DNA of 64,000 bases from Streptomyces pristinaespiralis (lineage in GTDB: Bacteria; Actinomycetota; Actinomycetes; Streptomycetales; Streptomycetaceae): NCBI RefSeq assembly GCF_001278075.1, contig NZ_CP011340.1:2046001-2110000 (forward strand), in the 5' to 3' direction. Shown in pieces: positions 13,677-20,903 of this stretch (position 1 is its first letter; each line of letters begins with the position of its first letter). Below the pieces are notes generated by a model that had not been told where the DNA came from, did not search any database, and saw only the letters and a program-made list of their open reading frames with translations. A program made the translations under genes and the position numbers.

Positions 13677-14468
13677 TTGTTGCGGCGCATCAACGGAACA
13701 GCACTCATCATCGCGGCCCTGGTCGTCACGGTCGGGGCGCTCGCGTTCCCCGTGTGGTCATACGCCGACCGTTCCGGCACCGGGCAGGACAATCTCAACG
13801 CCTCGAGCGTGGCGACCCAGTGGGGGCCGCTGTCGGCCACCGACCGCGACTTCCTCGTCAAGGTGCGGCTCGCCGGCCTGTGGGAACTGCCCGCCGGGCA
13901 GCAGGCGATCGAACGCGCGCCCACCGAGGCCGTCAAGGCGGCCGGCGACCACCTCGTCGTCGGCCACACCGACCTCGACAAGCGGGCCCGCAACGTGGCG
14001 GCGCAGCTGGGCGTCGAGCTGCCGAACCAGCCCACCGAGCAGCAGCAGGGCTGGCTGCGCGAACTGTCCGCGGCGCAGGGCGAGGAGTACGAGCGCAAGT
14101 TCGCCCAGCTTCTGCGGAACGCCCACGGCAAGGTCTTCGCGCTGATCGCGCAGGTCCGTCACACCACCCGCAACACACTGATCCGCCAGCTCGCCTCGGA
14201 CGCCAACCAGACGGTCCTCGACCACATCACGATGCTCGAGCAGACCGGCCGGGTCGACTTCGACGCCATCGCCAACGAAGCCGCGGCGGGAGCCACGGCC
14301 AGCCCGAGCGGTCCGCCGCCGCCGGACGGCAACCTGCCGCCCGCGCCGCCCGCGGTCACCCCGACCGGGGACCAGTCGTTCACGTCCCGGCCCTCACCGC
14401 AGCCGGGTGCGCCGACCGCGGTCAACACCGACCGCCCGGCACCGCAGGACCCCGTCCCTGCGGGATGA
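13677..14468 (+). CDS. DUF4142-domain exported protein
   Basis: A 263-residue protein; the TTG start has GGAGG 6 nt upstream. One N-terminal hydrophobic segment (LIIAALVVTVGALAFPVW) acts as signal or anchor. The DUF4142 region (about 50-195) is a helical, ferritin-like bundle. It opens with LSATDRDFLVKVRLAGLWE and includes VGHTDLDKRARNVAAQLGV and LIRQLASDANQTVLDHI, which hold scattered His, Asp and Glu residues. The C-terminal about 70 residues are Pro/Gly/Ser-rich and probably disordered. The gene lies just upstream of the MNIO gene in the same direction, but a strong hairpin separates them. The function is unknown; a role in cell-envelope or metal handling is only a guess. Confidence 0.8.
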   Translation: MLRRINGTALIIAALVVTVGALAFPVWSYADRSGTGQDNLNASSVATQWGPLSATDRDFLVKVRLAGLWELPAGQQAIERAPTEAVKAAGDHLVVGHTDLDKRARNVAAQLGVELPNQPTEQQQGWLRELSAAQGEEYERKFAQLLRNAHGKVFALIAQVRHTTRNTLIRQLASDANQTVLDHITMLEQTGRVDFDAIANEAAAGATASPSGPPPPDGNLPPAPPAVTPTGDQSFTSRPSPQPGAPTAVNTDRPAPQDPVPAG

Positions 14469-14618: not shown

Positions 14619-15929
14619 ATGGAACTCGGCATCGGAATCGGCTGGCGGCCGGAGATCGCGGACACGGTGGAGCGGCTGCCGGAGCTCGACTGGGTCGAGG
14701 TCGTCGCGGAGAACGTCTGCCCCGGCCACCTGCCGCCCGCACTGCTCCGGCTGCGCTCGCGCGGCGTCCGCGTCGTCCCGCACGGCGTCTCGCTCGGACT
14801 CGGCGGCGCCGACCGGCCCTCGAAGCGGCGCCTGGCCGATCTGGCAGAGCGGGCAGAGGCACTGGCCGCGCCGCTGGTCACGGAGCACATCGCGTTCGTG
14901 AGGGCGGGCGGCGCGCTCACCGCGTCCGCCGTGCAGGAGGCCGGCCATCTGCTGCCCGTCCCCCGCACCTGGGACGCGCTCGCCGTGCTGTGCGAGAACG
15001 TGCGCATCGCGCAGGACTCGCTGCCGGTGCCGCTGGCGCTGGAGAACATCGCGGCGATGTTCTCCTGGCCGGGCGAGGAGCTCACCGAGGGCCAGTTCCT
15101 CGCGGAGCTCGTGGAACGGACCGGGGTAGGGCTGCTGATCGACGTGGCCAACCTCCACACCAACCACGTCAACCGCGGCGAGGACCCGTCGGCCGCGCTC
15201 GACGAACTGCCGGTGGAGTCGATCGCGTACGTCCATGTCGCGGGCGGCGTCGAACGCGACGGGATCTGGCACGACACGCACGCGCACCCGGTGACACGGC
15301 CGGTCCTGGACATCCTGTCGGACCTGCGGAGCAGGGTGAACCCGCCGGGGGTGCTGCTGGAGCGCGACGACGACTTCCCCGCCGGTTCCGAGCTGGAGGC
15401 CGAACTCGCGACCATCCGCACGACCCTGGCGTCGGCCGCGCACAGCGCCCGCTCCGCCTCGCCCCGGACCACCCCCCTCGCGGCGACGCCGCCCCGCCCC
15501 GCCTCCGACACAAGAACGCCGCCCGCCCGCCAGCACGTCGCGCTCAGGCAGGCCGCCCTGCTGTCCGCGCTCGTCGCGGGAACGCCCGCACCCGAGGGAT
15601 TCGACGCACGCCGCCTGCGCGTGCAGAGCCGCGCCCTCGCCGCGAAGCGCGCGGACGTCGTCGCGAAGGTCGCGCCCGAGCTGCCCGAGATCCTCGGGAC
15701 CGGCTACCGGGCCGCCTTCCTCGCGTACGCCAGGAACCGCCCCATGCACGCGGGTTACCGGCGCGACGCGCTCGACTTCGCCGAGCACCTGCTGGCCTCA
15801 GGACGCCCGCAGGACGGCGCCGCCCGGCGCAGGCTGACCCTGTGGTGGCGGGAGCGCAGCGCCACCCGTCCGCCGCGCGGGGCGACCCGCCTGGTCCGTG
15901 TGGCCCGCGCCGCGCTCGCGGCGAGGTGA
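14619..15929 (+). CDS. DUF692/MNIO-family multinuclear iron oxidase-like enzyme with C-terminal extension
   Basis: Residues 1-270 form a DUF692 TIM barrel, the family of MbnB, TglH and ChrH, which use two or three iron ions to modify cysteine or backbone groups of peptides. Candidate metal ligands are in the expected order: His55 (VVPHGVSLG), Glu89-His90 (TEHIAF), Glu142-Asn143 (LENIAAMF), Asp175/His180/His183 ([10 protein letters not shown]), His206 (YVHVAGG), Asp219 with His221/223 (HDTHAH), and Glu249 (LLERDDD). An Ala/Pro/Thr linker (about 275-303) leads to a helical C-terminal domain (304-436) with no metal-type motifs, perhaps a fused substrate-recruiting partner. The ATG at 14619 follows GGAGGAGGGG; the GTG at 14604 lies inside that site. 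The next gene begins at the stop and encodes a Cys-dotted membrane protein, the likely substrate. Confidence 0.85.
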
Positions 15930-15934
15930 GCGCC

Positions 15935-16912
15935 ATGGAATTCCTCGCGATCGTCGTCCATCTCGCGGTCGGCCTGTCGTCCCTGTTCCTGATCGTCCGG
16001 GTGTCCGCCGCCCAGCCGGCCTCCCCGCCCGGCGCCGCGCACGTCCACGACGCGTACGAGGCGGCCTTCCTCGCGGGCGGACCCGGACGCGTCGTCGACG
16101 CCGCGATCACCGCCCTGCACGGCGACGGACGGATCGCCGTCGGCTGGCCCGGAGTTCTGTCCGCGCTGCGGCCGGTCGCGCGGGACCCGGTGGAGCGGGC
16201 GGTGTTCTCGGTGCTCCCCTTCGCCCCGAACGGCGCGCTGCACACCGTACGGCTCCACACGATGCGCAGCCCCGCGGTACAGGAGATCGGCGACCTGCTC
16301 GCGGCACGCGGACTGATGGTGCCGCCCGGCCACGGCACGGGGCTCGCCCGGTGGGGCGTGATCCAGAGCGCGGTCTGCTTCCTCGGCCTCCCGGTGTCGC
16401 TCTTCCTCACGGTCGTCGCATTCCTCGGTGACACGTCCGGCGGCCCGGGATCGCCGTTCGTCCTCCTGGTCTTCCCGGTGCTGATCGCGGGCGCCGTGAT
16501 CGGCGCGTTCCAGGCGCGACGCGCCCGGCGGCGGGTCACGCCCGCGGGGCGGAGCGCGCTGCGTGCGTACCGCCTGGCGCACTCCGGGACGCGGGATCCG
16601 GCCGTCCTGGTGGCCCTGCAGGGCGTGCGGGGCGTGCCGGACTACGCCCTGCGCAGGCAGTTGGGCGCGGCCGTGCGGGTCGGTGCGACGAGCGGTGGCA
16701 CGACGGGCGGCGTGCCGAGCGATCCGTCGTACGCGCCTCCCTTCGTGGGCGAGGCCGTGTGGTGCGCCGGTTCGTCTCCCGAGTCGGGGGGCGGTTCCGG
16801 CTGCGGCGCGTCCGGCGGGTCGGGCTGCGGCGGCTCGGGAGGCGGCTCCGGCTCCTCCTGCGGCGGCTCCTCCGGATCCAGTTGCGGCGGAGGCTCCGGC
16901 AGCAGTTCCTGA
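15935..16912 (+). CDS. TIGR04222-domain membrane protein with Cys/Gly/Ser tail, likely MNIO partner
   Basis: A 325-residue protein with a membrane helix at residues 3-22. The TIGR04222 region (about 38-245) follows: AYEAAFLAGGPGRVVDAA is its hallmark, and a hydrophobic pair lies at 141-165 and 174-192. The family pattern is a conserved domain followed by low-complexity sequence. Here residues 284-325 are almost only Gly and Ser, with cysteines at 290, 298, 309 and 317, plus Cys277 just before. The start codon is ATG 15935, with GAGGTGA 8 nt upstream. A GTG at 15926 overlaps the MNIO stop as GTGA and would add three residues. Coupling to the MNIO gene suggests the tail cysteines are modified by it; this is inference. 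Confidence 0.85.
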   Translation: MEFLAIVVHLAVGLSSLFLIVRVSAAQPASPPGAAHVHDAYEAAFLAGGPGRVVDAAITALHGDGRIAVGWPGVLSALRPVARDPVERAVFSVLPFAPNGALHTVRLHTMRSPAVQEIGDLLAARGLMVPPGHGTGLARWGVIQSAVCFLGLPVSLFLTVVAFLGDTSGGPGSPFVLLVFPVLIAGAVIGAFQARRARRRVTPAGRSALRAYRLAHSGTRDPAVLVALQGVRGVPDYALRRQLGAAVRVGATSGGTTGGVPSDPSYAPPFVGEAVWCAGSSPESGGGSGCGASGGSGCGGSGGGSGSSCGGSSGSSCGGGSGSSS

Positions 16913-18757: not shown

Positions 18758-19471
18758 TTACGCGAGACCCGCGACGAGGTCCGCCACGTCCTTGCGGCGG
18801 CCGGTGTAGAACGGGACCTCCTCACGGACGTGCATCCGCGCCTCCGACGCACGCAGGTGCCGCATCAGGTCGACGATGCGGTACAGCTCGTCCGCCTCGA
18901 AGGCGAGGATCCACTCGTAGTCGCCGAGCGAGAACGAGGCGACCGTGTTGGCGCGCACGTCCGGGTAGCCGCGGGCCATCTTGCCGTGGTCGGCGAGCAT
19001 CCGGCGACGGTCCTCGTCGGGGAGCAGGTACCAGTCGTAGGAGCGCACGAAGGGGTAGACCGAGACGTAGTTGCGGGGGGTCTCGTCGGCCAGGAACGCC
19101 GGGATGTGCGACTTGTTGAACTCGGCGGGGCGGTGCAGCGCCATGTTCGACCACACCGGCTCGAGCGCGCGGCCGAGGCGGGTGCGGCGGAAGCGGTTGT
19201 ACGCGTCCTGCAGCTCGTCCGCGGTCTCGGCGTGCCACCAGATCATCACGTCGGCGTCGGCACGCAGCCCGGACACGTCGTACGTGCCGCGCACGGTGAC
19301 GTCCTTGGCGGCGAGCTGGTCGAACAGCTCCTGGACCTCCTCGGCGTAACCGGAGCGGTCCTCGGGCAGCACATCGCGCAACTTGAAGACGGACCACAGC
19401 GTGTACCGGATGACCTCGTTGAGGTCCTTGGCCTTCTTGCCTGCGTTCGGGAGCTTTTCTGGCGCACTCAT
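18758..19471 (-). CDS. hemQ: Coproheme decarboxylase HemQ (chlorite-dismutase family)
   Basis: A 237-residue cytoplasmic enzyme that converts coproheme III to haem b by two oxidative decarboxylations, the last step of the coproporphyrin-dependent pathway of Gram-positive bacteria. Family sequence is clear: [17 protein letters not shown] at the N-terminus, the active-site tyrosine region [18 protein letters not shown], and [19 protein letters not shown] before the C-terminal strand. The length is usual. The start (ATG 19471) is 4 nt after the hemG stop, so the two are co-transcribed. The longer frame from 19492 would overlap hemG and lacks support. Confidence 0.93.
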
Positions 19472-19475
19472 ACGG

Positions 19476-20903
19476 CTATTGTCCCGCCTCACGATCGGTG
19501 CCCCGCGCCAGGGTCGGCGTGGCGAGAATCTCGTCCGCGGCGCGCTGTCCGCTCGCGACGCAGGCCGGGATCCCGACGCCTTCGTACACCGCGCCGCACA
19601 GCCGCAGCCCCGGCAGCCCGGCGACCTCCTCGCGGATGCGGGCGACCCGGTCGAGGTGCCCCACGGGGTACTGGGGCAGGCCGCCGGTCCACCGGGTGAC
19701 CTCGGCGGCGACCGGGCGGGCGGTGAGCCCCACGGCGGCGCGGAGGTCGGTCAGGGAGACGTCGACGAGCTCGGCGTCCTCGCGTTCGAGGGCCTGCTCC
19801 TCGCCGTAGCGGCCGACGGAGGTGCGCAGCACGAACAGGTCCCCCGCGCTCCGGGCGACCCAGCCCCACTTGTTGGAGGAGAAGGTGGAGGCCTTGATGG
19901 TGTGCCCGTCCACCGGCGGGACGAGGAATCCGCTGCCTGCCGGCATCCCCGCCACGTCGGCGCGCCGGAACGCCATGGTGACCAGCGCCATCGAGGCGTA
20001 TTCGACACGGCCGAGCTCGGCCGCGGCGGCCGGCGACACGGAGGCCAGCAGCGCGGACGCGGACCAGGCGGGCGTGGCGAGCACCACGGCGTCGGCGTCG
20101 AGCGTCCCGCCGTCGGTGCGGACCTGCCAGCGGTCCGCGGCGCGGGTCAGGCCGAGGACGGGCGTCTCGGTGCGGATGTCGCCGCCCTTGGCGCGTACGG
20201 CGTCGGCCACGGCGCCCGGCAGGGTGCCGATGCCGCCGTCGAGCCCCATGAAGACCGGGCCTCCGGTCTGCTGCCCGGCCGCCCTCGCCTGGATGTCCCG
20301 CACGCCCTCGAGCAGTGAGTCATGGGTCCTCGCGGCCTCGAAGAGCTGGGGGACGGCCGCGCGCATCGAGATGCGGTAGGCGTCACCCGCGTAGACGCCG
20401 CCGAGCAGCGGCTCGACCAGCCGGTCGACGACCTCCCGGCCGAGGCGCTCGGCGACGTACGCGCCGACGGCGACGTCGTCGCCCACCGCGGCCGGCGCGA
20501 GGTCCTTCTCGTGCTCGATTCGGGCGAGGCCCTCCGCGGAGAGCAGCCCGGCGAGCGCCGACGCGTCACCCGGGACGCCCATCACATGCCCCTTCGGCAT
20601 GGGCCGCAGGGCGTCACGGGTCCAGACCGCCGAGGTCGCCGTGGCCGGCGGCTCCAGCCGGTCGCCGAGACCGACCGCGCGGGCGAGGTCGGTGCCCTCG
20701 GCGCGGCGGGCGAGCATCGACTCGGCGCCGAGGTCGACCCGCACGCCCTCGATCTCGCCCGACAGCAGCTTGCCGCCGACGCGGTCGGTCGCCTCGAGGA
20801 GGGTGACGCGCACGCCGGAGGCGAGCAGCCGGTGCGCGGCGGCGAGACCGGCGATACCGCCCCCGATGACGACGACATGGCGCGCTCGTGTGTCCACGTT
20901 CAT
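19476..20903 (-). CDS. hemG: Protoporphyrinogen/coproporphyrinogen III oxidase (FAD-dependent)
   Basis: A 475-residue flavoprotein of the HemY/CgoX class (hemG is the symbol commonly used in Streptomyces). It oxidises a porphyrinogen by six electrons using oxygen. In organisms with HemQ the physiological substrate is coproporphyrinogen III. The N-terminal dinucleotide fold is [17 protein letters not shown], followed by [14 protein letters not shown]. The C-terminal FAD contact is [18 protein letters not shown]. The ATG start is at the divergent region shared with the DUF4349 lipoprotein gene. It lies directly upstream of hemQ and about 3 kb from hemE, which is separately transcribed. Confidence 0.92.

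Follow-up and report, generated by a model that had tools for sequence, protein, structure and literature searches.

Which protein does an MNIO enzyme modify when its neighbour is an integral membrane protein, where does the modified segment lie, and which domain serves as the partner of the enzyme? These questions are raised by a 64,000-nucleotide stretch of the Streptomyces pristinaespiralis genome (contig NZ_CP011340.1, positions 2,046,001 to 2,110,000; hereafter the window), in which an MNIO gene is followed by a gene for a TIGR04222 protein whose C-terminal Gly/Ser tail carries cysteines. The source genome, a single contig of 8.53 Mb, has one MNIO match and one TIGR04222 match. Profile searches confirmed the gene pair, a three-helix TIGR04222 protein with a Cys-bearing tail adjoining an MNIO, that an initial annotation had picked out.

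We propose that the locus is a two-gene cassette. A cytosolic single-chain enzyme, made of an MNIO domain and a fused partner-like domain, would bind the neighbouring TIGR04222 protein and oxidise cysteines in the S-C-G repeats at its C-terminus. Most likely each Cys would yield one four-electron heterocycle of the 5-thiooxazole type known from EGKCG captophorins. The resulting row of soft-metal ligands would stay anchored to the cytoplasmic membrane on its inner side and would most plausibly buffer copper or another soft metal. A further substrate of the MNIO must exist in many Streptomyces. We assign this reading a probability of about 0.5. Its elements, all on the + strand, are as follows.

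14619..15929, +, MNIO-partner fusion gene, 436 amino acids
14628..15425, +, MNIO catalytic TIM-barrel domain, residues 4-269
15531..15926, +, fused C-terminal all-helical partner-like domain, residues ~305-436 (homology to a stand-alone gene; helices of the model)
15935..16912, +, TIGR04222 membrane protein with Cys-rich Gly/Ser tail, 325 amino acids (TIGR04222 match)
15938..16012, +, first hydrophobic helix of the TIGR04222 protein, residues 2-26 (model and hydropathy)
16355..16429, +, second hydrophobic helix, residues ~141-165 (model and hydropathy)
16457..16528, +, third hydrophobic helix, residues ~175-198 (model and hydropathy)
16517..16534, +, RRARRR after the third helix, the main positive-inside signal (sequence; family Lys+Arg means)
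16757..16909, +, VWCA motif and Gly/Ser tail with C277, C290, C298, C309 and C317 (sequence)

An alternative GTG start of the TIGR04222 gene, at 15926, overlaps the MNIO stop.

The MNIO and its fused partner-like domain

Membership of the enzyme in the MNIO family was evident from a PF05114 match above the cut-off (264 bits, E = 1.6e-78, residues 4-269) and from its TIM-barrel fold; the VIA-align structure comparison of the model covered residues 1-279, the catalytic part. Aligned with TglH and 3bww, the window MNIO keeps the conserved positions, which we take to be metal ligands and which the initial annotation had reported as present. Across the Streptomyces MNIO rows the conserved His, Asp, Glu and Asn positions are likewise kept, with rare exceptions. 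The enzyme falls outside the BufB bufferin maturases (180 bits to NF050167, cut-off 310) and scores 40 bits to the ChrH model, whose cut-off is 600.

The initial annotation overlooked a second domain in this protein. After a Pro/Ala-rich linker, residues ~305-436 form a domain that is strongly conserved in 15 aligned homologues, is helical in the predicted model, and corresponds to PF26136 in the precomputed annotation of MNIO homologues (the 120 listed). A profile of this domain matched the stand-alone gene that follows the MNIO in four non-Streptomyces loci, L052, L061, L062 and L063 (E values 7e-11 to 2e-13), and a 30-residue piece in a fifth, L060. Because the domain is homologous to a gene that stands alone after the MNIO elsewhere, we regard it as a partner-like domain that is fused to the enzyme in the window.

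Fusion is the usual arrangement in Streptomyces, where 99 of 108 loci with an MNIO have the domain in the MNIO frame and the other nine have separate genes (L064, L165, L169 and L170, with no MNIO above 200 bits, were left out of this count). At 36 further non-Streptomyces loci the domain shared the MNIO frame at nine, had a separate frame at 26 and went undetected at one. In the 35 loci where it was found it starts 6-214 bases past the MNIO domain match, two of the 35 (L289 and L291) being partial, with only about 40 residues matched. These two and L060 (7654-7875) belong to genus g3, in which the match to the partner-like gene spans only ~30-43 residues and gives way to divergent sequence, a pattern like that left by a frameshift or truncation. 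The fusion was also seen in the actinobacterial family f81 (L259, L261, L263, L266, L268, L270, L273, L279 and L281), which suggests a separate fusion event. At L296, in genome G453, the Cys-Gly tail of the TIGR04222 protein continues into sequence that, on visual inspection, looks like the partner-like domain, an arrangement that loss of an intervening MNIO could have produced; elsewhere the genome has an MNIO-family match of 142 bits.

How the fused domain relates to known MNIO partners (DUF2063, NGO1945, TglI) is less clear-cut, the signs of a remote similarity being weak. Its match to DUF2063 (PF09836) is below threshold (17.8 bits, cut-off 27.2, E = 0.0041), and an hhalign comparison with DUF2063 gave E = 0.0036 at a probability of only 9%, an unrelated control giving E = 0.4. 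The four stand-alone relatives matched no Pfam family, and a profile search of the PDB with the fused domain returned chance matches only. DUF2063 itself had no match in the window's genome and a single match in 41 genomes (the window's and 40 relatives), and the window locus thus has no BufB-type DUF2063 (PME-type 1) partner above the cut-off. The small helical domain that characterizes PME-type 2 partners, encoded next to the MNIO, is supplied here by the fused domain. From its position, size and helical make-up the domain is probably a PME-type 2-like partner, any deeper homology to DUF2063 being weak, and it may work as the partner of this enzyme.

The fused domain thereby offers an answer to a published question. 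In TIGR04222 clusters, DUF2063 genes were reported to be absent, PME-type 2 partners were reported in at least 10%, and many clusters appeared to have no partner gene (PMC12452194), whereas in nearly all loci examined here the partner-like domain is fused to the MNIO or next to it. In 12 of 13 passages of that study on fusions and topology, no MNIO-partner fusion is mentioned. The fusion also provides a convenient single polypeptide for in vitro work.

The cysteine tail and its co-occurrence with the MNIO

The window TIGR04222 protein (172.5 bits, cut-off 43) consists of three hydrophobic helices, by model and hydropathy, and a tail modelled with low confidence; a Foldseek search of the PDB with the model gave no useful match (best E 0.87). 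We compared its tail in 121 Streptomyces rows, namely the query and 120 listed of 808 matches, one of which is the query's own cluster. A conserved [VILM]WC[AG] motif opens the tail in 119 of the 121, and the median number of tail cysteines is eight. Among 110 distinct tails none of 593 neighbouring cysteine pairs lies fewer than four residues apart (mean of 173 in shuffles), the cysteine is followed by Gly in 86% of cases (43% after shuffling) and has Ser before it in 68% (39% after shuffling). The tail cysteines are therefore non-randomly placed, with a preference for S-C-G, and are not the drift of a low-complexity stretch.

With a Cys-containing Gly/Ser C-terminal tail and an adjacent MNIO, the window protein has the features of the putative TIGR04222 substrates described by Antoine et al. 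(2025, Microb Genom, PMC12452194), which are likewise membrane proteins with a C-terminal Gly/Ser/Cys segment next to an MNIO, mostly in Actinomycetota. From a set of more than 3,500 TIGR04222 proteins, that study reported Ser/Gly regions with cysteines at the C-terminus and a frequent association with MNIOs, and it proposed subsets as MNIO substrates, so that both the pairing and the idea of the tail as substrate are already in print. It also reported that more than a quarter of TIGR04222 proteins have no C-proximal cysteine and that an MNIO is missing from 490 of the 1,372 TIGR04222-containing genomes. Elsewhere, one TIGR04222 peptide is mentioned in a bacteriocin cluster (PMC5183585). To this account our computations add the fused partner-like domain, a likely cytosolic tail, and a link across species between Cys tail and MNIO.

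This last link came from the survey of co-occurrence and adjacency that the initial annotation had suggested. In 296 genomes of the phylum, TIGR04222 was above the cut-off in 15 and an MNIO in 19; 14 had both, always on the same strand and no more than about 2.1 kb apart. Nine of these 14 are Streptomyces, six of which have the tail-less TIGR04222 form only. The assembly of the fifteenth TIGR04222 genome (G013) is split into 960 contigs, and its match sits on one of 8.6 kb. Among 393 genomes of the class, TIGR04222 (E <= 1e-8) was found in 118 and an MNIO in 98. We then took 79 further TIGR04222 genes, two of them from Streptomyces (35 adjacent to an MNIO, nine with an MNIO elsewhere in the genome and 35 from genomes with none), and scored as a Cys-Gly tail any end with two or more Cys-Gly among its final 40 residues. 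The nine came from eight hand-picked genomes, one of them a Streptomyces; in some the MNIO was of another type, and G659 and G719 were left out. The 35 MNIO-less rows came from 34 genomes of the class survey, one of which gave two rows, and a second G567 match was left out.

Such a tail was present in 34 of the 35 genes adjacent to an MNIO, in five of the nine with an MNIO elsewhere and in one of the 35 without, that is, in 39/44 genes from genomes with an MNIO against 1/35 from genomes without (Fisher p = 7e-16). The exceptions are few. The adjacent gene without a Cys-Gly tail is that of L270, and L296, scored among the genes with an MNIO elsewhere, has Cys-Gly repeats that fall outside the last 40 residues. 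The single MNIO-less tail (G480, L226) lies where a contig breaks off, on the flank that carries the MNIO in the relative G490. A Gly/Ser-rich end is present in 14 of the 35 MNIO-less genes, several with Asp in place of Cys (GGGGDGGGGGGGD), and the other 21 have no such end; the MNIO-less genes belong largely to other subfamilies. Beside the published counts, then, the MNIO-less relatives in our sample are almost all without Cys-Gly tails. Gene order differs between the groups, the TIGR04222 match preceding the MNIO in the 35 adjacent non-Streptomyces loci and following it in Streptomyces. At one non-Streptomyces locus, L061, a second TIGR04222 match has an unclear end, and a Cys-rich open reading frame in another frame comes just after it.

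Shared ancestry tempers this association. On the TIGR04222 tree MNIO presence changes six times and the Cys tail eight times, both clustered by clade, and an independent-pairs test found only three starred independent pairs and had no power, there being too few independent changes. The substrate relation put forward in the initial annotation thus gains support from the way the Cys tail tracks the MNIO; it was already published, the association is clade-clustered, and the tail is not the sole substrate. We consider it likely that the tail is a substrate of the MNIO, in a relation that is not exclusive.

Membrane topology and the location of the tail

The initial annotation placed the tail at the cell surface, and Antoine et al. 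place it in the periplasm from predicted topology (PMC12452194). For the Streptomyces form our prediction is the opposite. In the 121 tailed rows mean Lys+Arg counts are 3.07 after helix 1, 2.39 before helix 2 and 3.89 after helix 3, compared with 0.00 at the N-terminus and 0.15 in the loop between helices 2 and 3. By the positive-inside rule this pattern, which holds in all 121 rows, puts the N-terminus outside, with the globular domain and the tail predicted to be cytosolic. The same balance was obtained for 57/57 scored locus proteins, 69/70 tail-less paralogues and 28/30 non-Streptomyces proteins. A cytosolic tail would be reachable by the cytosolic MNIO without an export step.

Some results favor an exported tail, modified before translocation. 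Our topology calls are simple hydropathy profiles and Lys/Arg counts, and at a looser threshold a fourth hydrophobic segment appears somewhere in 19 of the 121 rows. Just before the tail, a candidate fourth helix, sufficiently hydrophobic to span the membrane, occurs in 3/47 Streptomyces locus proteins and 6/32 non-Streptomyces proteins, and those tails would therefore lie outside. In the tailed Streptomyces rows, however, no candidate fourth helix was found between helix 3 and the end of the tail (0/121). Two TIGR04222-like proteins far from an MNIO, at L067 (6965-7705) and L070 (7115-7855), are without clear membrane helices, their hydropathy maxima over 19 residues (1.59 and 1.43) falling in charged helices of the domain; both end in a short Gly-rich tail with one Cys. 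They weakly suggest a cytosolic domain, and between domain and tail lie two helices. We consider export unlikely, though it retains some weight, and for the window protein a surface-bound tail was not borne out.

Other substrates and the proposed metal buffer

If the inward-facing tail is modified, it cannot be the only substrate of the MNIO; it is at most one of several. An MNIO is above the cut-off in 115 of 121 Streptomyces genomes, and a Cys-rich-tailed TIGR04222 protein is encoded at only 57 of the 105 non-edge Streptomyces loci (contig-edge loci L093, L109 and L131 were counted apart, and Streptomyces loci near contig ends left out). At 29 of the 57 it is accompanied by a tail-less one of ~260 amino acids. 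A further 42 loci have a tail-less TIGR04222 only, mostly a paralogue, and six have none; the tail-less class has borderline cases, L073 keeping a one-Cys remnant of the tail and L112 giving only a fragment match. The initial annotation had named adjacent TIGR04222 proteins without cysteines as evidence against its proposal, and the 42 loci with no Cys-rich tail on any TIGR04222 protein, together with the six that have none, count in part against it.

The loci without a Cys-tailed protein are concentrated: 45 of the 48 fall in one starred clade of 49 rows, which also includes two tailed and two edge loci. There the enzyme keeps its conserved His, Asp, Glu and Asn almost throughout, and the median pairwise ratio of nonsynonymous to synonymous substitution rates (dN/dS) of the MNIO is 0.145 without the tail and 0.211 with it, the pairs not being independent. 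The MNIO is under purifying selection where the Cys-tailed gene is absent from the locus, and because it persists in this way it must have another substrate in that clade. Searches for a displaced tail gave little. No other Cys-rich Gly/Ser open reading frame was found in eight loci without a Cys-tailed protein, and among 17 Streptomyces lacking one at the locus a Cys-tailed TIGR04222 was found elsewhere in one genome (G366, L192), with at most 97 candidates scored per genome. None of six MNIO-less Streptomyces shows a Cys-tailed protein, two of them keeping the tail-less paralogue, and a further one in the class survey (G677) has the tail-less form only.

The conserved Streptomyces substrate could then be the tail-less paralogue, a DUF4142 neighbour or a protein elsewhere, the Cys tail being a secondary or former substrate. 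Helix 1 of the paralogue beside the MNIO (at L053, L054, L056-L059 and others) closes with C-x3-C, for the most part C-x-R-L-C, in 59 of the 70 proteins scored, which is in keeping with a role as substrate. As a marker of the MNIO we rejected the motif: two of three paralogues from MNIO-less Streptomyces lack the second Cys while the third keeps it, an inconsistent hint. DUF4142 genes lie upstream of the MNIO or between it and TIGR04222 in many Streptomyces loci (e.g. L053, 7892-8686), and their proteins carry Pro-rich tails; the window has such a common neighbour.

13677..14468, +, DUF4142 protein (PF13628, 2.6e-20)

In five non-Streptomyces loci checked, however, no DUF4142 gene was seen. 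The constraint on the enzyme in the absence of the tail speaks for a mainly different substrate, which we judge unlikely. Much less probable still, the tail could bind metal through free thiols as an unmodified metal or redox sponge while the MNIO acts on something unrelated, a view that fits poorly with the tracking of Cys tails with the MNIO and with cysteine spacings of at least four in S-C-G context, unlike CxxC metal motifs.

Further along the window, two minus-strand genes at 18758-20903 look like HemQ and HemG. S. coelicolor has SCO6042 (chlorite dismutase) named before SCO6041 (protoporphyrinogen oxidase) (PMC5069765), and because these annotations follow the same order the window is probably the counterpart of SCO6039-6045. 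SCO6045, which may be the MNIO, appears in an HbpS-SenS-SenR RNA-seq table (PMC4991794). Heme supply is a possible context of the cassette, and we do not count it as evidence.

For the chemistry of the proposed cassette the closest models are the EGKCG captophorins and oxazolins (fontiphorin, HvfA), which also combine repeated Cys-Gly sites with an MNIO and a partner. In the EGKCG captophorins the Lys-Cys-Gly site is modified, each repeat losing four hydrogens at Lys-Cys to form a 5-thiooxazole, one heterocycle per repeat, and the product binds copper (PMC13097082). Unlike the window system, those precursors have Sec signal peptides (PMC12452194) and DUF2063 (PME-type 1) partners. The window's carrier is instead a membrane protein with three helices, and its MNIO has a fused partner-like domain with only a remote resemblance to DUF2063. 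That an MNIO can act on a large protein is known from the ChrH subfamily, whose members modify the C-terminus of a protein of more than 30 kDa or of lipid-anchored hybrids of lipoproteins and ribosomally synthesized and post-translationally modified peptides (PMC12636315). Those systems have a CPACGMG motif and a lipid anchor; the window protein has S-C-G repeats on a polytopic protein.

The interpretation in the initial annotation was partly supported and partly already published, and the locus is best described as a variant of a known putative class. We tentatively favor a role for the tethered tail in buffering copper or another soft metal at the inside of the membrane. That the single-chain enzyme makes an inward-facing, membrane-bound metallophore polymer of S-C-G heterocycles, kept on an integral membrane protein and never released, is possible but doubtful.

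Whatever the product, a comparison of strains can directly test the substrate question, given a clade in which the enzyme persists while the tailed gene is gone; the contrast between Cys-Gly tails in the presence of the MNIO and tails lacking Cys-Gly in its absence serves the same end. The MNIO products in the literature cited here are peptides, exported proteins or lipoproteins. Modification of this tail in place would mean that a metallophore facing the cytosol is carried by an integral membrane protein.

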